Shown one piece after another: positions 1,904-12,215 of a stretch of DNA of 12,215 bases (positions within the stretch are counted from its first letter, which is position 1; the number at the start of each line of letters is the position of its first letter). The position numbers were made by a program, and so were the translations under genes. The notes beneath the pieces were generated by a model. The model ran no database searches, was not told where the DNA came from, and was given only the letters and a program-made list of their open reading frames with translations. Source of the DNA: an uncultured Acidaminococcus sp. (GTDB lineage: Bacteria; Bacillota_C; Negativicutes; Acidaminococcales; Acidaminococcaceae); NCBI GenBank assembly GCA_900314165.1, contig OMUE01000128.1:1-12215 (forward strand), in the 5' to 3' direction.

Positions 1904-2887
1904 TCACCGAAACGTCTGCCAGGCATCCAGGACGTCCAAAAAGGCACCATCAAAGCCAGCGTGAAGGATTTCGTCCAGGTAAGCCTCGTCACTGCCGTAG
2001 AGGATCCGCTGCCAGGGCTTTTCCCAATACCGGACCCGATAGGCACCGGGCCAATTGGGGTTGCTCCGGGCAATCCAGGAAGGGCGGCTCCCCGGATCGT
2101 TCCATTCCGTTTGCCAATAGGTCCGGTAATCCGCGGCTTCACCCACGCTCATATAAGCCAGGATCAGACGACGGCCCCCCTGGGGTTTAGCCTGGAGCTT
2201 GCGGACCTCCTCCCTCGTCAGAGGCTCGCTGCCGTAGTACAGGTCTAAGATGAGCACGTCGTAGGGTGTCTCTGCCAAGGCTTCCAGATAGGCGGAGCGG
2301 CTCTCGAAACCGCCGGGATTCAGCAGGATGAGAAAATTTTCAGCCTGGGCAACTCCCCTGACGTCCCGGTCGTTCTTGTCCGGGACCGTCCCCTCAGGAA
2401 TCCCATCCAGGCTGCTGCGGGCAGAGGTCATGCTGATATAGCCCCGCTCCCCGCCCAAGGCTTCCACTTTCTTCCGTTTCTGATCCGGCGCATAATCCAG
2501 GGTCCAAACCGCCTTGCCGGCCGCCTTGGGCTTTGCCAGCATGGCGTCGATATACGTCAGGACCTTCGGATCCTGTTCCGCTGTCTTCTCCCCGTTTCCG
2601 GTAAAGAACACGCTTTCCGCCAGGAAGCCGTCCAGGGAGCCCACCAGCTTATCCACAGCCTCCTGAGTTTCCGTCTTCGTGACCTCCAACAGGCCCAGGG
2701 CTCCGTTGCCCACAAGCTGGAAATCCGGCTGTTTTTCTTTTGCGTAGGAGCAGATTTCCTCCGTCAACTCCACCATGGCCTGTTCCGGGGTCTGGTTTAG
2801 CGCTTCCACTGGGGAAGCCGCAGCACCGGGGCTGGCAGCACAGAAGATTCCTGCCGACAGCCAGCAGAGCAGTGAAGAAAACTTCAT
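1904..2887 (-). CDS. Secreted GH114/TM1410-like glycoside hydrolase, circularly permuted order
   Basis: A 327-residue secreted protein, with signal peptide about 1-24 and a cleavage-like GAAAS. It matches the alpha-1,4-polygalactosaminidase-like (GH114, COG2342) TIM-barrel family, related to the hydrolase domain of PelA (GH166). Motifs normally in the first half of the barrel sit in the second half here: YDVLILDLYY (209-218), LAYMSVGEAADYRTYW (243-258), NPNWPGAYRVRYW (276-288) and GFDGAFLDVLDAW (311-323). Blocks resembling the usual C-terminal half come first: KQPDFQLVGNG (52-62), LDGFLAESVFF (85-95, with E91 a candidate catalytic acid), GKAVWTLDY (124-132) and ERGYISMTSARSSLDG (147-162). It starts 24 bases after the barrel gene with an AAAGGAA ribosome site (2900-2894) and is the last Pel-operon gene. 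Inferred role: periplasmic trimming or release of the galactosamine-rich polymer. Superfamily is confident; substrate and permutation are inference. Confidence 0.8.
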   Translation of the reverse strand: MKFSSLLCWLSAGIFCAASPGAAASPVEALNQTPEQAMVELTEEICSYAKEKQPDFQLVGNGALGLLEVTKTETQEAVDKLVGSLDGFLAESVFFTGNGEKTAEQDPKVLTYIDAMLAKPKAAGKAVWTLDYAPDQKRKKVEALGGERGYISMTSARSSLDGIPEGTVPDKNDRDVRGVAQAENFLILLNPGGFESRSAYLEALAETPYDVLILDLYYGSEPLTREEVRKLQAKPQGGRRLILAYMSVGEAADYRTYWQTEWNDPGSRPSWIARSNPNWPGAYRVRYWEKPWQRILYGSDEAYLDEILHAGFDGAFLDVLDAWQTFR

Positions 2888-2911: not shown

Positions 2912-5062
2912 TCAAAACGTATGGGTATACCAGAACGATACACCGTAACCGTTATAATTTGAAGAATCTTTCTGGGTGCGGACGTACCGCTCCAGATCCA
3001 GGCTCCAATGATCCACCTGGGATGCTTTCCATTCCAGCCGCAGACCAAGGCCGTACCGTTCCCATCGGCCTTCATTCTTTACCTGATACAGCGGATCATA
3101 GCCCACCGTAGCTGCATACCAGCTGGCAAAGCCCTGCCAGGAAAATTCAGGTGTCACTTTATGGCGCAGGGACAGCAGGATACCGCCTTCGTTCATAGCC
3201 GGCACATCAAAGTCCCCTGCCGTGGCTCCCGCATGGCCCACGGTAGTGTAAAGGCCCAGCTCGTCTTTGGGACGGAGCTGGAAATTTGCAGCTGCTCCGG
3301 CTTCTACGGCAGCTCCATCCCGATAGTGCAGCAGGCTGCCCTTCTGCCAGACAGGTCTGTCTGCGCGCCAATTCCAAACAACACCGTCTTCCTGGGAACC
3401 GTCCGTATACGTATAGGAAAGCCATGTACGCAGCTGGTGCTTGTCACCGATATGATCATAGGCAAGACGGGCAATGGTCTGGTCCCCCGGATTCACTTCT
3501 GCACCCGGCACTTCCTTGGAATAGTGGTAAGAGTGCCGGTTATTATAGATCAATTTTCCAGTAATACTATCTCGCTCTGTGAAATGATGGACGCCCTCGA
3601 TTTCCGGCTGGAACTGCCAGCCTCCTCCAAAGTCCTGGAAAAGACCAACGCCTTTGGGCACATAGGCGTCCCTATAATACCGGCTTTCCCCCGTAGGAGC
3701 TACAATAGCTATCCCATACCTTACACTATTGACCGGATTATCATTATGGTAGCGCAGGCTCAGCGTCGTGTCCATCCAATCGGAAAAACGTCCCGGCGTT
3801 CCGTCCAGCCCGCTGCCCCCACCGGTGTCCGACAACAGATGACCTGTGTCAACGCCGATTTCCAGCCCATGGACTTTTTCTCCTACGGGCCAGTCCTTGG
3901 GATTCACGCGGGTCTCCCCCGGATATTTATCCAGCCGTTCTGCCACATAGGCGGAAATAGGCACATAGGCCTGATGACCGGCATGTCTGCCATGCCAGCC
4001 CCGGTACAGGAAGCCGGTCCGGGTACTGACGATGTCATAGCCCAGATTCCAAACAGCAGAAGCGGTGTTGGACACATTATCGCGGGATTGGACGAGAGCC
4101 TTTCCGGCTTCTTCTTCCCACTGCCGCGTTTTCACTTCATTTTCTTTTGCTTCACGGAGCCGTCCGTCGGCCTCCCCTACCCATTTGCGGGCACCTTCCT
4201 GCCAATGAGCCGCACTCTGAGCCGTGGCTTCTGCCGCACTCCGTTCAGCCCGGGCAGCATCGTAAGCGCTCTTCAATTTTGCTAAAGGGACGGACGCTTC
4301 TCTCAGACGGTCATTGATCGTATCCAGACGCTGGCTGGCCTCCGTACCCTGAGCCGAAACCTGCTCTGCCTGAGCGGAGATTTCAGCAGTCCTGGTTTTT
4401 TTCAGTTCTTCTAAAGCCGCCACATCAGAGACACCATAGCTGTAGGCATCTGCCCGTTCCACAGCTTCCATCAGCCGGTTCTGGTCATAGCCCACGTCTT
4501 CTACAGCTCGCTGGACAGCAGCAATCCGGTCTTCACTGAGGTCCGAACCTGTATTATAAAGTTCATCCATCTCCCCGGTCAGTTCGTCCATGCGGTTGTT
4601 CAGGTCTCTCAGCTCGTCCACCACTGCCTGGGACTCTGCCGTAAGCTGGTCCACAATCGCCTGTTGCTGATTCAGGGGATCTTGCAGGGAAGCCATGACA
4701 GCCGCAGCCTGTTCCATCTGCTTCCGGGCAGCCTGAAGCGCTGCTGTAGCGTCGGCAAGGGCCTGGCGGCTGGCAGTCCTATCCTGTTCCGCCTGGAAAA
4801 TGTATTGTTTTTCAAGTTTTACTGCTTTTCGTGCAGCCTGAAGGTTTTTCTCGGACTCCAGGACGGCCGCCCGGGCTGCCTGGAGATTTTTCATTGCCTC
4901 GTGACGGGACTTCAGATCAGCCTGCTTTTGCCGCAACTCCTGCAGCGTCATGAGAGCATCCGTCGTAGGATCGTGGTAAGCTCCATAAGTCGTGGCAGTA
5001 GTTCCCGTAAGAAGCATCGTCAACAATAGCGCTGCCGCCAGCTTTCTTTGTCTGAGCTTCAT
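2912..5062 (-). CDS. Coiled-coil plus beta-barrel outer-membrane protein, candidate Pel exporter
   Basis: A 716-residue protein not recognised as a named family. It has a signal peptide (about 1-28, Lys/Arg-rich then LLLTMLLTG, cleavage near TYGA). A long charged, Ala/Glu/Gln-rich helical region follows (about 35-335) and should form coiled coils, with a break near 165-215. A C-terminal region of about 375 residues (340-716) has alternating aromatic/hydrophobic short strands with Gly/Asn/Asp turns, ending in FWYTHTF. A terminal Phe after an amphipathic strand is the classic outer-membrane barrel signature. I see no SLH, POTRA or TPR domain. Its ATG overlaps the pelG stop as ATGA (5062-5059), so translation is coupled to pelG. 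By position and architecture (periplasmic helical part plus barrel) it could replace PelB, but it shares no recognised PelB sequence. It could alternatively be a porin or envelope tether. Barrel call strong; Pel export role inferred. Confidence 0.8.
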   Translation of the reverse strand: MKLRQRKLAAALLLTMLLTGTTATTYGAYHDPTTDALMTLQELRQKQADLKSRHEAMKNLQAARAAVLESEKNLQAARKAVKLEKQYIFQAEQDRTASRQALADATAALQAARKQMEQAAAVMASLQDPLNQQQAIVDQLTAESQAVVDELRDLNNRMDELTGEMDELYNTGSDLSEDRIAAVQRAVEDVGYDQNRLMEAVERADAYSYGVSDVAALEELKKTRTAEISAQAEQVSAQGTEASQRLDTINDRLREASVPLAKLKSAYDAARAERSAAEATAQSAAHWQEGARKWVGEADGRLREAKENEVKTRQWEEEAGKALVQSRDNVSNTASAVWNLGYDIVSTRTGFLYRGWHGRHAGHQAYVPISAYVAERLDKYPGETRVNPKDWPVGEKVHGLEIGVDTGHLLSDTGGGSGLDGTPGRFSDWMDTTLSLRYHNDNPVNSVRYGIAIVAPTGESRYYRDAYVPKGVGLFQDFGGGWQFQPEIEGVHHFTERDSITGKLIYNNRHSYHYSKEVPGAEVNPGDQTIARLAYDHIGDKHQLRTWLSYTYTDGSQEDGVVWNWRADRPVWQKGSLLHYRDGAAVEAGAAANFQLRPKDELGLYTTVGHAGATAGDFDVPAMNEGGILLSLRHKVTPEFSWQGFASWYAATVGYDPLYQVKNEGRWERYGLGLRLEWKASQVDHWSLDLERYVRTQKDSSNYNGYGVSFWYTHTF

Positions 5063-6552
5063 TCTGCATCCCCCCAGTCTTCCGGCCGCAGGTTCATAAT
5101 ATCCACGAGCCGGCCGCCGCTGAGCCGCTGGGCAAGATGGGTCAGCGGACCATTGGGCGGACGATAGAAGATGGGCTGGGAACAGTACACGTAAAAACCT
5201 ACATTGGACACAAAGCGTGTCAGTTCACGCCACCCCATGCAAAAAGCTCCTATAGCTGCGATAAAGAACGTAAAGCCGTAAGAATCAGGACCCCCGTAAC
5301 CAAGACCCCAGAGCCCCAGGGTCAGGCTCAGCAGGAAAAATGTCCCGCCAAGGCGCAGAAGGGCAGCCTGATCATCAAAATAAGTCAACAAGATAAAAAG
5401 AATTTCCACCAGGCCCGCAAAGAACACTGCGAAGAGGAGCACGTCAAACATCTGCATATCCGAATCTGGAATTCCGGACCAGACAAAGAGAGTGTCCCCT
5501 ATAGCCAGGAAGACCAGCGTCACTGCCAGTTGGAATTCCACCAGCTGACGCAGTTCAAACCAGAAGACATGCAGCAGGTCCTTCAACAGATACTCAATTT
5601 CCCGCAGGTTAGCGCCCTGAACTATAGCCGCAAAGAACGCGGAATGATGCGTATGGAAATGAGTTTCCGAACGGACCACGAATACCGTCATGAGGGGAAG
5701 GATGGACAGGAAGGCATAAAAAGAGGCTACATCATATTCCGGCGCATAAATATAGGTTTGGGCAATCACCTTCCCCCAGGGGCCCAGCCAGATGAGGATA
5801 TTTGGCAGATACAGGCTGGCAGTATACCCGACTGTAGCCAGTCCCAATCGCCAATGACGTTCGAAATAAGGCAGGAACCCGAAACAGAGGCCCTTCTCAG
5901 GCAGGCCGAAGCAACGGACCACTTGGATGAAGAAAATGGTTAGAAGCAGCCAAAGACCTGCATCCACAGCCGCCAGACCTGCAAGGTGGGGCGCAAGGCT
6001 CGTATAGTGCAGCAGGATATAGGACGTAAGCATGGCCAGTACAAGACCCGCTGCAAAGCCCAGCACAAGGCGCATATAGCGGCGCAGGGCCGTAAGGTAA
6101 ATGGTCTCAGTCCAGATGACCAGTAATTCCATAAACAAGAGATAGGCTAACCCCTTGTCAAGATAGGGCAAAGGACTGTGAGCAAAAAAGATAGTGGCGA
6201 GCACACCACCCAAGGATAGCAGCACGGCACACAGGCCAAACAGGGAGGCAGTCACATCCCGGAGGAAATTTGTGGAAATACAGTCCGAAAGATAGCGGGT
6301 CTGCATCATGGTAAAGCCGCTTGATAGGAACTGGGAAAACACGAAGGAATAGATAATGGGCCCCAAAAAGAGATCCTGCTCTCCCTGGGACACACCGTTT
6401 AACCGGAACTGCAGCTGGATCAGGAAGATCGTCAGCGTAAGGAGCAGGAACGGACCGGTGGTGATGATGGCGGAATAGGTAAACGCCCGGAGATACCCCA
6501 GTGCCGTCCGGGATTTATACAGTTTTTTCAATTCAAAGCCGACGCCTGCCAT
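5059..6552 (-). CDS. pelG: Pel polysaccharide inner-membrane transporter PelG
   Basis: A 497-residue polytopic membrane protein of the PelG family (MOP flippase-like superfamily), the presumed inner-membrane translocator of the Pel chain. The N-terminus MAGVGFELKKLYKS followed by a first membrane segment (about 23-48, with TTGPFLLL) is characteristic of PelG. Around twelve hydrophobic segments run through to about residue 440, and a hydrophilic tail of some 40 residues follows. Length is slightly above the Pseudomonas protein (about 456 residues), mainly in loops and tail. The ATG at 6552 is preceded by AAAGGAGG (6569-6562), which overlaps the end of pelF. The gap to pelF is only 5 bases, and the 3' end overlaps the next gene by 4 bases. 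In known systems PelG works with PelD, PelE and PelF at the inner membrane. Family assignment is confident. Confidence 0.93.
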   Translation of the reverse strand: MAGVGFELKKLYKSRTALGYLRAFTYSAIITTGPFLLLTLTIFLIQLQFRLNGVSQGEQDLFLGPIIYSFVFSQFLSSGFTMMQTRYLSDCISTNFLRDVTASLFGLCAVLLSLGGVLATIFFAHSPLPYLDKGLAYLLFMELLVIWTETIYLTALRRYMRLVLGFAAGLVLAMLTSYILLHYTSLAPHLAGLAAVDAGLWLLLTIFFIQVVRCFGLPEKGLCFGFLPYFERHWRLGLATVGYTASLYLPNILIWLGPWGKVIAQTYIYAPEYDVASFYAFLSILPLMTVFVVRSETHFHTHHSAFFAAIVQGANLREIEYLLKDLLHVFWFELRQLVEFQLAVTLVFLAIGDTLFVWSGIPDSDMQMFDVLLFAVFFAGLVEILFILLTYFDDQAALLRLGGTFFLLSLTLGLWGLGYGGPDSYGFTFFIAAIGAFCMGWRELTRFVSNVGFYVYCSQPIFYRPPNGPLTHLAQRLSGGRLVDIMNLRPEDWGDAE

Positions 6553-6557
6553 GCCGT

Positions 6558-7994
6558 TCAGCCTCCTTTCTTAGTCAATTTGTGGCACGACTGATAGATC
6601 TCCCGATAGGCGTTAATGAAGAGTTCATACGTATAGCTGTTTTTCACGCGCTCATAGCCGATATCGGCCATGCGGCTGCGCAGCTGGAAACTGCCTGCCA
6701 AACGCAGGATTTCATCAGCCAGGGCCTTATCATTCATGGGAGGTACCACACTGCCGGCGCTGCCAAGATGATCCTGGCTGTCCCCATAGATCAACTCCCG
6801 GCAGCAGCCAACGTCCGTTGTAACATACGGGCGATGGGCCGCAAAGCCTTCCAATACGGCCAGAGGCTGGCCTTCACTGATACTGGAGAGCACCAGGATA
6901 TCCATGCGGGGCAGGTACTCCGCCACATTGACAGTACCCGTAAAATGAACGTGTTTCAGGGAAAGGTTCCTGGCCAGGCTCTTCATAAGGGCAGCGTATT
7001 CCGGTTCCTCTTCCAGGTTACCCATAATGTAGAACTCTGTGTCCGTTCTCTCCTGCTGCACCCGGTAAAACGCATACAGCAGCGTGGAAATATCTTTGAT
7101 GGGCACCACCCGCACAACGGCGCCTATGACGATGGGCCCTGGATGGTCCGTCAACTTCGGCACCGAGGCAAAGCGCTCCATATGGATGCCATTGGGTACC
7201 ACGTGGATTTTCTCCGGTGGACAGCCGATTTCAGCCTCTATGTGGGCATTGTGTTCGAATAACGTATAGACCTGGTCCGCCTTCTGATAGGCAAGGCGCC
7301 CCAGATTGTAGAAATAATCGATCCAGATGCCCTTGAAATCTCCACGGACCCAGTCGCTCTTGATGATTTCGTTTTCCCGTTCCCGGGCATAGATGCCATG
7401 CTCCGTCAGGATAAAGGGCTTATGGTATTGTGCTGCGGCCACGGCCCCAATGATACCGCAATACCCCGTAGCTACACTGTGGTACACGTCGGCCTGGGGC
7501 AGATTTTTCTGCTGCAGCAGATAAAAGAACGGCAGCAGCATAGAGCGAATAGTCCAGAAATAATCTGTAAAAGGCAGATAGCTAAACTGTTCCTTATAGG
7601 CCCTTTGAATGACCTTGAAGAAGTCCTCGGACATAAAGATATCGAAAGGGCTTTTCCACTGCCGATTGCGGAAGATCCCCATGAGGCAGTCAAAGTCTAT
7701 ATCATCCTTGTTGCCGACCAGAGAAGTCAGGGCCTGGCATTCCTCATTCGTCAGCATAGGCGGAATCAGTCCCGTTGCCCGTTCGGATAACACTTCATCT
7801 AAAAAGACTTCCTGGACGGCTGTACAGTTTTCCGGAAGCTTATATTTAAAATTTCCCCTGTCCTTGGCCAGGGCCCCGATGGAATATACGGTAAATTCCA
7901 CCTCTGGCAGGCCCTGTATGAGCATGTGTGTCCAGGCTGACACGCCACCCACCACATAGGGATAGGATCCCTCTGTCAGGAGACAGACCTTCAT
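6558..7994 (-). CDS. pelF: Pel glycosyltransferase PelF (GT4)
   Basis: A 478-residue cytoplasmic GT-B glycosyltransferase of family GT4 that polymerises Pel, with UDP-GalNAc/UDP-GlcNAc donors in characterised PelF. The N-terminal glycine loop is EGSYPYVVGGVSAW (8-21), typical of PelF. TEHGIYARERENEI (197-210) is also characteristic. The donor-site EX7E motif of retaining GT4 enzymes is seen as E374-GQPLAVL-E382, followed by the conserved TTDVGCCREL (392-401). Length is close to the family norm and there is no membrane segment. Its ATG overlaps the deacetylase stop as ATGA (7994-7991), with a GGAAGGAT-type ribosome site in the preceding gene. It is the best-conserved marker that this is a Pel cluster. 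Confidence 0.95.
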   Translation of the reverse strand: MKVCLLTEGSYPYVVGGVSAWTHMLIQGLPEVEFTVYSIGALAKDRGNFKYKLPENCTAVQEVFLDEVLSERATGLIPPMLTNEECQALTSLVGNKDDIDFDCLMGIFRNRQWKSPFDIFMSEDFFKVIQRAYKEQFSYLPFTDYFWTIRSMLLPFFYLLQQKNLPQADVYHSVATGYCGIIGAVAAAQYHKPFILTEHGIYARERENEIIKSDWVRGDFKGIWIDYFYNLGRLAYQKADQVYTLFEHNAHIEAEIGCPPEKIHVVPNGIHMERFASVPKLTDHPGPIVIGAVVRVVPIKDISTLLYAFYRVQQERTDTEFYIMGNLEEEPEYAALMKSLARNLSLKHVHFTGTVNVAEYLPRMDILVLSSISEGQPLAVLEGFAAHRPYVTTDVGCCRELIYGDSQDHLGSAGSVVPPMNDKALADEILRLAGSFQLRSRMADIGYERVKNSYTYELFINAYREIYQSCHKLTKKGG

Positions 7995-9817
7995 GATACA
8001 TCATCCTTCCAATAAAGCCGTGCTGTTTCTCCCTTCATACGGATGAGATACACCCCTTGGTCTACCCTATGTGCGGTACAGCCTTCCGTATGGTCAGGTA
8101 CATGCTTCGAGCGCAGCAGGAAACAGGCTTCCTGCTGATGCCCCCAGGCATGGATCTCCAGGTAAGCTGGCGTGCGCAGGACACGGTAATCCAGATCAAA
8201 GTACGTGTCGAAATAAGGCAGGCTGCCCGAAGCAGTAACCGGCGTCAGCCAAGGGAACTTCATGGTCAGCTTATTTAAGAACGTATCCAATCCCACCTTT
8301 AGTTCGGACCAGCTGGTATTTCGGTCCTCTTCAAAAAGGATTTCATCCGGATGGATAAAATGGGAGAATACTCCTAAGTCATTGATTGCGGAAATGACCC
8401 GCCAGGATAACGATCCAGAGGGTCTGTGACCGGAAGAAATCCGCGGCAGGTCATACAGACCGTCCTTCCGGCGCCGGAACTCCTGCACATCCTGGGGATT
8501 GCTATTGCTTTCATCATAGCTGGCGCAGATGACGCGGACCGACGGCACCGCCTGGCGAACCGCCCGGACACCATTTTCATCAAGGATGTTCGAGGGGGCA
8601 ATGTATACCTGGAACGTATACTCCGGATACACGGACCGACTGTACTGGTGCAGCGCCTCCAGAGACGCTGCCATAGTCTTTTCATCGGGCCAGGGCTTAT
8701 ATCTCAGTGGCTCCAGACCTTTGGGATTCATAGTCAGGGGCTGGTGGTTATAGCCGTGCAGGGCCAGCTCCCCTTTTTTGTTCAGGATCTCCCGTCCGTA
8801 CCGAATCAGGCTGTTGCGGCCATCTTTGACGTCAGCAGGAAAGGGTCCCTGGACCTGGTTATCATAGGTAGCGATAATTCCGCCGGTCAGCCGCAGGTCA
8901 TAGGTTTCTGCCAGCTTCCGTATGAAAGGCCACCATTCGTTCCGGTAAAAATCCCTTGTGGCAAGGCCCGTATCCTCGTAAATCTTTGCTTCCCGCCCTT
9001 TCGGAATTGGGGCAGGAAAATCGTCCAGATAAAAGAGTTTGACTCCAACCACTGGATAGATGGCCTCGTTGCCGGCATGGAATAGCATAGCCGCCAACAG
9101 GCCCCGCAGGGTTTTGTCCTCCCTTTCATTTCCGTTATAGGCGATCACCTGACCTTTTCCATAGGGATGGGTCCAAAGCAGGGGAATTGTACCGTCAGAG
9201 GAGGCTATTTCCACAGTCGTATCCTCTGTCAGGGAGACCCCATTGGCCTGGGTCGTGTAATCGGCGGCTACGGAGATCCCCTGGCCACCCAGTAAAAAGG
9301 ACGTGCGGAATTCCATTCCGTGAGCCCAGCCCAAGGTTCCCAGGCTACTGATGCCCATAGCCTCGCGGACTGCCGGCGCAACTCCGTCGGGAGTCCCGGG
9401 AACCAGGCGCTGCAGGAAGAGTACCGTGCCTCCCTCCTTCCCATAGGACAGGATTTCTGTCATAGCCCGGATGAGGTCAGGATTTTCTGCTGCGATCAGG
9501 ACCCCACGGACGGACTGCGGGATGGGCACTGCCAGTGCATCCACCCGGCGGCTCTCATAGGTTTTCTTCTGGCGTTCCAGCATCATTTCCACATTATGCC
9601 GGGCGTACATGCTGGTCACACTGCTGGGATCATAGTAAATGACATACGAATCCCGCTGCAGGGAGTCGGCGCCCTGCCAGGGCTCAGCAGCCAACCGCTG
9701 CTGGGCTTCGTTATGAAACGAGCCGAACGTCAGGAACCCATCTACACGCATATACTGGAACAGGCAGCCCAGAATGATGGCAAAGAGCAGGCAAAAGAAA
9801 ATGCCCTTATTTTTCAT
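7991..9817 (-). CDS. pelA: DUF2194 polysaccharide deacetylase, PelA deacetylase-type (no hydrolase domain)
   Basis: A 608-residue protein with an N-terminal membrane anchor or uncleaved signal (about 5-22), so its bulk faces outside the inner membrane. An alpha/beta domain (about 55-250) precedes a deacetylase domain (about 255-550) with metal-site motifs like those of carbohydrate esterase family 4. These are YLDDFPAP (D265, D266), LALHGYNHQP (H354, H358) and a further FSHFIHPDE (H486, H489). This matches DUF2194 proteins that act as the stand-alone PelA deacetylase in Firmicute pel clusters. They remove acetyl groups from GalNAc residues to give the cationic polymer. The GH166 hydrolase half of Pseudomonas PelA (about 950 residues in total) is absent. 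The start follows a perfect GGAGGTGA ribosome site (9831-9824), and its ATG overlaps the pelE stop (9817-9814). Domain call firm; enzyme specificity inferred from context. Confidence 0.88.
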   Translation of the reverse strand: MKNKGIFFCLLFAIILGCLFQYMRVDGFLTFGSFHNEAQQRLAAEPWQGADSLQRDSYVIYYDPSSVTSMYARHNVEMMLERQKKTYESRRVDALAVPIPQSVRGVLIAAENPDLIRAMTEILSYGKEGGTVLFLQRLVPGTPDGVAPAVREAMGISSLGTLGWAHGMEFRTSFLLGGQGISVAADYTTQANGVSLTEDTTVEIASSDGTIPLLWTHPYGKGQVIAYNGNEREDKTLRGLLAAMLFHAGNEAIYPVVGVKLFYLDDFPAPIPKGREAKIYEDTGLATRDFYRNEWWPFIRKLAETYDLRLTGGIIATYDNQVQGPFPADVKDGRNSLIRYGREILNKKGELALHGYNHQPLTMNPKGLEPLRYKPWPDEKTMAASLEALHQYSRSVYPEYTFQVYIAPSNILDENGVRAVRQAVPSVRVICASYDESNSNPQDVQEFRRRKDGLYDLPRISSGHRPSGSLSWRVISAINDLGVFSHFIHPDEILFEEDRNTSWSELKVGLDTFLNKLTMKFPWLTPVTASGSLPYFDTYFDLDYRVLRTPAYLEIHAWGHQQEACFLLRSKHVPDHTEGCTAHRVDQGVYLIRMKGETARLYWKDDVS

Positions 9818-10701
9818 GCGGGCTCACCTCCCCAATAGCGGACGGCCTGTTCGACCTGTGGCGACCGCTTCCCGGGCAGGGCTGCCAGCTCACGGGCGGC
9901 CTGCCGAATGCCTTGGAGGTCATGCCGGGCAACTGCCAGCTGCAGCGCCAGATACAGGGGTTCCTCCGCCTGGGGATTTTGTTGACGCTCCAGGGCTATA
10001 GCCTGCTCAGCCTGGGGAAAATCTTCCAGACTTATGGCAAGCCGAATAGACAGATACCGATAGGTTTTCTGTTCAGGTTCCTGCGCGGACAGGCGTAGGG
10101 CCACAGAACGCAGTTCATTCTCGTACATCCGCCGCTGCAGAGAAGTTACATAGCCTCCTTCAAGGTAGGCTTCCAGTTCTTTGGCATACTGCTTTAGGAG
10201 TGCAGTTTTCTCCCCGCCTTCCGCCTTCTTCAATTTAAGTTCCAATGCTTCCAACCGAGCCTGTATTTTTTCACTGCGGGCCTTCAGCAGTGACACGGCA
10301 TAATAAGAAATTTCCCGGTCCTGGTCATTGACGGCCTCCCGCAGAAAGTCCGATTTCTCCACAACTTCCTGTTTAATAGCCGTCGTAAAAATGCGCCGCC
10401 TGGCCTGGTCGTCCTGCACAAAGGACAGGTTACCCAGCGGCATAGCATCTGTCTGAGAGAGCAGCCGTCCTAACGGCTCCGTATCACGCAGTTTTTGGGC
10501 CCGCCGATAGCGGTGAGATCGCTGCTGGCTGAACTGGCAGAACCCCTCCCAGACCAGCAGAGCCAGGAAACCCGCTGCAGGCAGGAAGAACACTACAGCC
10601 GTTTCGGCCAAGGCGTGCTGCCGATCTGTTTGCCGGCTCCGCAGCGTGAACCAGAACAACGTAAGCACCACATGAAGTACAATTGCATAGGTCATATTCA
10701 T
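9814..10701 (-). CDS. pelE: PelE-like inner-membrane protein with helical repeats
   Basis: A 295-residue protein with two N-terminal membrane segments (about 3-19 and 30-51) followed by a cytoplasmic all-helical region. This region includes a conserved-looking NDQDREISYYAVSLLKAR stretch and TPR-like helix pairs to the C-terminus. This is the layout of PelE, which binds PelD and organises the synthase complex in Pseudomonas. I chose ATG 10701, one base after the pelD stop (TGATATG) with an AAAGAGG-type site upstream. An upstream ATG at 10749 would add 16 basic residues, overlap pelD by 47 bases and put charge ahead of the first membrane segment. Its stop overlaps the next start as ATGA. Sequence similarity to PelE is low by eye, so the call rests on architecture plus position between pelD and the deacetylase. 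Confidence 0.8.
   Translation of the reverse strand: MNMTYAIVLHVVLTLFWFTLRSRQTDRQHALAETAVVFFLPAAGFLALLVWEGFCQFSQQRSHRYRRAQKLRDTEPLGRLLSQTDAMPLGNLSFVQDDQARRRIFTTAIKQEVVEKSDFLREAVNDQDREISYYAVSLLKARSEKIQARLEALELKLKKAEGGEKTALLKQYAKELEAYLEGGYVTSLQRRMYENELRSVALRLSAQEPEQKTYRYLSIRLAISLEDFPQAEQAIALERQQNPQAEEPLYLALQLAVARHDLQGIRQAARELAALPGKRSPQVEQAVRYWGGEPA
9824..9831 (-). promoter_or_regulatory. Strong Shine-Dalgarno site for the deacetylase gene, inside pelE
   Basis: GGAGGTGA on the minus strand is a full-length match to the 16S anti-Shine-Dalgarno sequence, 6 bases before the ATG at 9817. It lies within the last codons of pelE, so the deacetylase can be initiated efficiently as well as by coupling through the ATGA overlap. 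Confidence 0.7.
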
Positions 10702-10702
10702 A

Positions 10703-12215
10703 TCAGATGACCTCTTTCTTTTCCCCGGTCCGTTCCCGTTCCGCTGCACGGGACAGGGCTAAAGAGACAAGGCGGGCCGTCAGGGAAAGCAGGTTCTGCT
10801 CATTGCAGCTCCATTGGGCAAAGGAAAGACCGTACACTTCTATAACAGCAACGACCTGGTCCTTATAGACAACCGGTGCCGCCAGATCCGGCACATTCTC
10901 CTTAAATTGCCGGTTCATAAACGTACGCTGGGCAGCCAGCACGTCCTTCAAATAGCCGGAATCTTCTACCTGCAGCAACTGAGGGCGGGCACCAGCCCGT
11001 TCCCCGCAAAAAGCCTTGCGGTGCAGCTCCTGGTTATTTGTCCCGCTGCCCATCACATAAATGGCCACGTCGGAGACTCTGAGGGTATCGGCAGTCACCT
11101 TGACGGCCTGGGTATAGATCTGATTCATAGCCACATTGTCCAACTTTTGAACGGTCCGGTAGATCCGCCCCACACTGTCGTCCGAATTGACAATCTGACG
11201 ATACAGGCGGTCCCGTACCTGCAGGCTATCGGACAACATACGCTGCAGCAGCGTGTTCTGCCGTGTCAACCGTTGCCGACTCAATTCATTGGATTGCCGT
11301 TCAAACCGGGTACTGTCATAGAAATACCCTGTAACACCAGCCGTCACGATATACGCCACATAGTGCAGGACCATGGCCGGATCGTAGAGCAGTCCCACCA
11401 GGTCGGCACCTTCATGAATATATCCTGCAGAAAGCAGGAAAGCTGAAAGAGCGGCTGCCAGTACGCTGTGGAGTTTTCCATACAACAGCCCCATGACCCC
11501 GATATACAGGAAATTAGGGTCAAAATAACCCCGCAGGCCATACATTTCCCCAATCCTGGCCACGCCGGCCATCAGGACAGCCCCAAAAAGGTTTTCCCCA
11601 TAGGGGATGAGCCGTTTCAATATACGTTTTCGGTTTTCGAGGCTGAAGAAACGCTTGCTTTCCTCCAGAGAATACTGCCGCTGGGCAACCATAGCAGCCA
11701 CTGTGTCCCGGATCCCGGCTCTGTCGTCCGTCCCCAGTTTCCAGCCAAACATATGCTCCGCCTTGGTTCCATCCAGCAAAGACGTTCCATAGCGGATACG
11801 GGGTGCTGCACCGGTCAGGTCAGAGCTTTGCCATGGACGGATAGCCGGCAATGTTTTGCCTTGCGGCAGGACAGGAGCCACGATGGTTGAAAAATCCTGC
11901 CAGGACAGCGGCGTTCCCTTTCCCAGATTTATGACCGGATCAGCATTTCCGCTGGCAGCCCATTGCCAGATGCCCGTAGCAGCATCCTGTGCCGAAAGAA
12001 AAGGCTGAAGGCCCACGTCAGCAATCGCAGAATCCGTGTTGTCCAGTGCCGCCTCTACGATGCGCCCTAACAACCCTTGCCCCAGCTGCTGGCCCTTACC
12101 ATAAAGTTCCGGCAGGTTCATGATGGTAATCTTCAGTCCTTCGTACCTGCGCCAGCTGTCTGCAAGGGCATAGAGCCGGCCCAATTGCCGTCCGCTCCGG
12201 CTCTGGGGGTCGTAA
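10703..12215 (-). CDS. pelD: PelD-like protein: SDR-like domain, membrane segments, GAF; 5' end outside window
   Basis: The frame is open to the right edge. The codon at 12184-12182 is TTG, and coding similarity continues upstream of it, so the true start is outside the window. The visible 503 residues (counted from 12214) begin with the C-terminal part of an NAD-dependent epimerase/dehydratase (SDR) domain, about 1-180: LKITIMNLPELYGKG, then LLDGTKAEHMFGWKLG and GIRDTVAAM. Three or four membrane segments follow (about 207-300), then a charged helical linker (about 300-335) and a GAF domain (about 345-490). The protein ends roughly ten residues after the GAF. PelD of Pseudomonas has membrane segments, GAF and a degenerate GGDEF that binds c-di-GMP; that last domain is absent here. 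As I recall, an N-terminal SDR domain is a feature of Firmicute PelD. Inferred role: inner-membrane scaffold and regulator of PelE, PelF and PelG. Confidence 0.85.
   Translation of the reverse strand, partial: YDPQSRSGRQLGRLYALADSWRRYEGLKITIMNLPELYGKGQQLGQGLLGRIVEAALDNTDSAIADVGLQPFLSAQDAATGIWQWAASGNADPVINLGKGTPLSWQDFSTIVAPVLPQGKTLPAIRPWQSSDLTGAAPRIRYGTSLLDGTKAEHMFGWKLGTDDRAGIRDTVAAMVAQRQYSLEESKRFFSLENRKRILKRLIPYGENLFGAVLMAGVARIGEMYGLRGYFDPNFLYIGVMGLLYGKLHSVLAAALSAFLLSAGYIHEGADLVGLLYDPAMVLHYVAYIVTAGVTGYFYDSTRFERQSNELSRQRLTRQNTLLQRMLSDSLQVRDRLYRQIVNSDDSVGRIYRTVQKLDNVAMNQIYTQAVKVTADTLRVSDVAIYVMGSGTNNQELHRKAFCGERAGARPQLLQVEDSGYLKDVLAAQRTFMNRQFKENVPDLAAPVVYKDQVVAVIEVYGLSFAQWSCNEQNLLSLTARLVSLALSRAAERERTGEKKEVI

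Follow-up and report, generated by a model that had tools for sequence, protein, structure and literature searches.

Pel of Pseudomonas aeruginosa leaves the cell through the PelBC complex, whose PelB is an operon partner of PelF and PelG and joins a long periplasmic helical part to a C-terminal barrel of 16 strands (PMC12141448). The helical part is a scaffold of tetratricopeptide repeats (TPRs), as it also is in the secretins PgaA and BcsC. In the Gram-positive pelDEA(DA)FG cluster of the Bacillus cereus type, the genes follow the order PelD, PelE, deacetylase-only PelA, PelF and PelG (PMC7112168). We analysed the minus-strand pel region of a 12,215-nt stretch of DNA from an uncultured Acidaminococcus sp. 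(hereafter the window, to which all positions refer). Behind pelG, this region encodes a 716-aa protein with a predicted coiled coil and a C-terminal barrel. Pel of diderm Firmicutes (Negativicutes) probably crosses the outer membrane through this protein, and the best reading of its relatives is a TPR-less family of outer-membrane exporters that serve synthase-dependent exopolysaccharides and are analogues of PelB, PgaA and BcsC. Word searches of the open-licence literature returned no description of this exporter, nor any of how synthase-made polysaccharides leave diderm Firmicutes. By word search, the main texts of PMC7112168 and PMC7112194, to which their supplementary species lists do not belong, mention neither Selenomonas nor Negativicutes nor diderm bacteria, and a paper on the outer-membrane proteome of Veillonella (PMC5491611) contains no mention of Pel or of the export of polysaccharides.

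Linkage of the barrel family to pelG

The window holds a Firmicute-type pel cluster, as an earlier note on this DNA had claimed: PelF, PelG, a deacetylase-only PelA (DUF2194 profile match) and PelD/PelE-like frames occur together and in the corresponding order. By sequence, the assignments of PelF and PelG are unambiguous, and those of PelD and PelE are putative, resting on position and weak matches. Unlike the B. cereus-type cluster, this one carries an extra barrel gene behind pelG. The open reading frame (ORF) of this gene starts inside the pelG stop codon, and the four-base ATGA overlap pointed out earlier was confirmed from the ORF coordinates (5059-5062). The same four-base start/stop overlap was found in 31 of 52 pelG-barrel neighbour pairs examined, window included. 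The reported lack of PelB and PelC in the visible operon also stood, as none of the seven pel-region proteins scanned matched either of them (no TPR family and no PF24604 at E ≤ 0.1).

For the main survey, we sampled 380 genomes from the class to which a Selenomonas genome belongs (assumed to be the Negativicutes), with a PelG profile (matches over cut-off) and a barrel profile (A3) for the exporter family as probes. PelG was found in 59 genomes, the barrel family in 66 and both in 57 (Fisher's exact test: p = 1.8e-55, not to be taken literally because the surveyed genomes are related). The barrel gene lay directly downstream of pelG on the same strand in 52 of the 57 genomes with both. The earlier note had proposed this survey and had named homologues lying mostly away from pel genes as evidence to the contrary; they do not, since 52 of the 66 barrel genomes have the barrel beside pelG. 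In the other five genomes with both, the gene was away from pelG (G009 and G230), the operon was rearranged (G235) or the contigs were split (G237, with a coil frame behind pelG, and G282). For one genome (G002), a weak fragment of 32.5 bits was picked in the adjacency count; the main barrel match nonetheless lies behind pelG. Both genomes with PelG alone are cut by contig ends, 52 bases past the pelG frame (G003) or within the coiled-coil frame (G120). The barrel family occurred without PelG in nine of the 380 genomes and was unmatched in 314. The class of a Clostridium genome, assumed to be the Clostridia, is monoderm; among 245 genomes sampled from it, PelG was over cut-off in nine (11 at E ≤ 0.001) and the barrel family in none.

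The known Pel exporters were looked for in the 59 PelG genomes. The PelB barrel (PF24604) matched in none of them, and the PelC profile gave one 47-residue fragment (E = 2.5e-4). As controls, three of three proteobacterial pel records were matched by PF24604, two of them over cut-off, and by the PelC profile, and neither profile matched the two fusobacterial records. Among these relatives, the PelB/PelC pair encoded elsewhere, which the earlier note had named as one possible refutation, is thus reduced to one weak PelC fragment.

As a query, the full-length window protein returned three proteins, its own included, among 7998 scored candidates, a list that we think is crowded by coiled-coil words. 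The barrel region alone returned nine, its own included, and that of the member at locus L005 returned 83 among 7999 scored. The window protein gave no match in an initial scan of genomes or in a tblastn search of plasmids; the PelG genome scan gave 13 loci. In one genome (G076), PelG and the barrel lie in a single open frame with no stop between them (L129:10156-13578). We do not claim a fusion, because a TTG codon with an upstream AGGAGG stretch permits a separate, internal start. Two Selenomonas members (P0040 and P0058) are named 'peroxidase' in public records, probably a misannotation.

Predicted architecture and proposed export route

The signal peptide (ending YGA), the coiled-coil character and the C-terminal Phe described in the earlier note were all recovered directly in the 716-aa sequence. 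An AlphaFold2 model from an alignment of 45 sequences (mean predicted local distance difference test score, pLDDT, 83.8; predicted template modelling score 0.64) has about 300 helical residues, with long helices at 32-169 and 214-338 and shorter ones between. At 0.15 nm per residue, the long helices correspond to about 20 and 19 nm. Strands are predicted from residue 344 to 715 and were grouped manually into 16, since DSSP splits some of them, which agrees with the continuous C-terminal barrel expected earlier and with the strand number of PelB. In relatives, more than 200 residues lie ahead of the barrel in 59 of 68 rows, fragments counted (median 346, range 231-444, each length with the signal peptide). 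Residues P456, T457, G458, F478 and G481 of a long loop are invariant across the 45-row alignment; the loop is predicted to face outward and may be a plug or gate. Several Selenomonas members (L004:11479-11640, L006, L008, L011) carry an unusually long, repeated Arg/Lys-rich N-terminal stretch (MRMSRK...MRMTRR) ahead of a signal-peptide-like segment.

The likeness to PelB in operon partners and general layout is not accompanied by likeness in sequence. Unlike PelB, the window protein has no TPR or PF24604 match and has a scaffold predicted as two long helices, and no PelC was found; relative to PgaA and BcsC as well, the TPR scaffold is replaced by a coiled coil. No TPR family was matched at E ≤ 0.1 in the window protein or at 0.01 among the families matched by the 45 members. 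In hhalign comparisons, no likeness was seen between the barrel and PelB (four sequences; probability 0.9%), one PgaA-like protein (2.1%) or one Cetobacterium barrel-like protein, nor between the coil and the PelB TPRs. The control, PelB against the PgaA-like protein, reached a probability of only 9%; therefore this test is weak and cannot prove independent origin. The earlier view that the protein is unrelated to PelB agrees with this lack of visible sequence likeness, at the strength of a weak test. In a profile search of solved structures (PDB), the whole protein hit coiled coils weakly and the A3 barrel profile hit no chain. A weak match to COG4313/Phenol_MetA_deg (PF13557) was present in nine of the 45 members at E ≤ 0.01 (best E = 1.4e-6), whereas the window protein had no match at that threshold and the member of L001, scanned with score, fell below the curated cut-off. 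Proteins of the COG4313/Phenol_MetA_deg family are not known to have a coiled coil.

The acidic lumen anticipated for a cationic polymer was not supported: inward-facing barrel residues, assigned by a crude strand-parity inference without a PelB control, have a net charge of +4 in the window protein and a mean of about 0 in the 45 members (range -7 to +6). The fold neighbourhood of the barrel is generic rather than specific, with PgaA, BcsC and porins included and the COG4313 channel 4rl8 in the Foldseek list. PelB was top among solved secretins for a nine-sequence model and is not among the matches listed for the 45-sequence model, which weakens its candidacy as the closest solved secretin.

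If the protein is the Pel exit, PelF would synthesise the polymer, PelG with PelD/PelE would convey it across the inner membrane and the DUF2194 protein would deacetylate it in the periplasm. The helical part, roughly 20 nm, would extend from the barrel toward the inner-membrane complex as a docking arm or guide in place of the PelB TPR scaffold. The polymer would then exit via the C-terminal 16-strand barrel, with the loop 456-482 perhaps as gate, and the GH114-type enzyme would trim the exported product. We infer the fold-back of the hairpin, the bridging, the gating and the transport. The window protein may conceivably form a trimeric stalk like that of OmpM, but no SLH domain was found.

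Members in other synthase operons and alternative explanations

Distant members of the family lie in other synthase operons. At L086 and L093, the barrel gene adjoins a BcsA-like synthase with PilZ, accompanied at L093 by an MBOAT acyltransferase and a GH5 cellulase. At L091 it follows BcsB in an operon that also holds a GT2, a DUF2334 deacetylase and a GGDEF protein, and L092 resembles this operon as judged from sequence starts. At L083, L084 and L085 it belongs to a GT2 plus deacetylase operon (GT2 scanned and deacetylase below cut-off at L083, deacetylase over cut-off at L085, L084 assigned from likeness). No synthase-type neighbours were recognised at L088 and L090, and L087 and L089 are at contig ends. 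A midpoint-rooted tree was built from the barrel domains of 65 of 66 candidate loci. The member of L007 (L007:11469-15053), which is 1194 aa long and whose barrel region contains a large insertion (roughly 450 residues), was excluded by length. The pel label, which on this tree was also given to two members located away from pelG (L094 and L095), requires at least three changes, and all seven other-synthase members fall into one group of 14 rows together with six pel rows and one orphan. From operon placements and tree together, the barrel family therefore seems to have been exchanged among synthase systems, which favours polymer export over a Pel-specific side task. The proposal of the earlier note, a recruited barrel doing the PelB job for Pel, accordingly keeps its support from relatives as a putative exporter, but not its restriction to Pel.

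Alternatively, the barrel could hold Pel, or an enzyme that processes it, on the outer membrane, with export via an unknown pore. The barrel gene is next to a hydrolase gene in the operon, and the coil, with a net charge of -14 in the window protein (outer loops: -5) and a family mean of -26, could bind a cationic polymer. However, profile scans, as distinct from structure prediction, revealed no second barrel protein in the locus. A PgaA-like protein was present in only ten of the 59 pel genomes, a count from one query sequence that may miss distant ones, and the barrel family is similarly placed in other synthase operons. We regard surface retention or assembly as unlikely.

Somewhat less probable still is a porin on a stalk whose task would be outer-membrane anchoring or nutrient uptake and whose gene would be a mere passenger of the operon. 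OmpM of diderm Firmicutes, found in the same bacterial class, likewise combines a coiled-coil stalk with a 16-strand barrel (PMC10628300), and porins are close fold neighbours of the barrel. Unlike OmpM, the family is tied to exopolysaccharide operons, no SLH domain was detected in the window protein, and SLH is not one of the 16 Pfam families that have a match in the 45 members. By sequence, no PDB chain is matched by the A3 profile. The linkage to PelG is tight, and most genomes of the class lack a barrel match, whereas a wide distribution in diderm Terrabacteria is reported for OmpM (PMC10628300). That Pel leaves by way of a TPR secretin of PgaA or PelB type, encoded at another site, is very improbable: PgaA-like TPR-barrel genes do occur in some of these genomes, once beside pel (L004), but their low count by that single query makes them unlikely as a general Pel exit, and the PelB barrel is unmatched. 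In Selenomonas sp. AE3005 (L004:14623-20134), the PgaA-like gene lies downstream of pel and is followed by deacetylase-like and GT2-like frames, both judged from the sequence start.

The 716-aa protein is thus a well-supported candidate for a new type of outer-membrane exporter. We lean slightly towards the broader view that it represents a second class of exopolysaccharide secretin in diderm Firmicutes, in which a coiled-coil hairpin across the periplasm, rather than TPRs, would carry a 16-strand barrel. Such secretins would be shared by Pel, cellulose-like and other synthase systems, with exchange between them, and would have arisen independently of PelB, PgaA and BcsC.

Window layout, other pel clusters and significance

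The features of the window are collected in Table 1. The pelE-like frame had no Pfam match above cut-off, and no GGDEF match was found by profile scan in the part of the pelD-like gene within the window; a PelD of epimerase/GAF type is described in PMC7112168.

Table 1 Features of the pel region in the 12,215-nt window
Feature	Position	Strand	Basis
GH114-type (TM1410-like) glycoside hydrolase, two halves swapped	1904..2887	-	PF03537, 51 bits; TM1410 alignment
Coiled-coil/16-strand-barrel protein, candidate outer-membrane exporter, 716 aa, ATG start	2912..5062	-	ORF; AlphaFold2 model; pelG adjacency
Predicted C-terminal barrel, residues 344-716	2915..4033	-	AlphaFold2 model; fold neighbours; barrel profile A3
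Conserved long loop, residues 456-482 (PTGESRYY...FGGGW), predicted extracellular, candidate plug/gate	3617..3697	-	45-row alignment and model
Predicted coiled-coil region, residues 32-338	4049..4969	-	AlphaFold2 model; SMC/Rad50-like hits below cut-off
Predicted signal peptide, residues 1 to about 28	4979..5062	-	By eye: KLRQRK, hydrophobic stretch, TTYGA
pelG	5059..6552	-	PF16933, 362 bits
pelF, GT4 glycosyltransferase	6558..7994	-	NF038011 PelF, 382 bits
DUF2194 protein, taken as deacetylase-type PelA	7991..9817	-	PF09960, 410 bits; position and PMC7112168
pelE-like, start codon uncertain, ATG at 10701	9814..10749	-	Between PelD and DUF2194, as in relatives
pelD-like, 5' end cut at window edge	10703..12214	-	Epimerase-like part and GAF, matches below cut-off

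The GH114-type hydrolase of this and three other pel clusters looks circularly permuted, with the C-terminal half of TM1410-like enzymes coming first: residues 59-136 of TM1410 align to residues 241-324 of the hydrolase, and 150-239 align weakly (6 bits) to 35-135. TIGR01370 was matched in two stretches in the window gene and at L005:13635-14636, L074:3782-4681 and L078:13280-14239, and in one stretch in a Paraburkholderia relative (L080). In two Fusobacteria (Cetobacterium somerae, L074:10001-13025; Fusobacterium vincentii, L078:10001-13270), PelG of a Firmicute-type pel cluster is extended C-terminally by about 250-300 residues. The extension follows a lipobox-like segment and is built from YDxxGF-type repeats. 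The extended pelG is followed by a gene for a secreted protein, 305 or 316 residues long, that resembles a small barrel by eye and is perhaps another outer-membrane solution.

One study reported PelF/PelG homologues in every Selenomonas sputigena strain that it covered; in it, the type strain ATCC 35185 forms surface biofilms and ATCC 33150, without PelF/PelG and otherwise much different, does not (PMC13339959). This correlation is in keeping with the proposal, and one member of the barrel family (P0058) is recorded from S. sputigena, which would give the exporter a bearing on oral biofilms. If the assignment is true, a named gene is available to delete, and it would follow that the TPR scaffold which PelB, PgaA and BcsC share is replaceable. 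It would also explain how a Gram-positive-type pel cluster could function behind an outer membrane.
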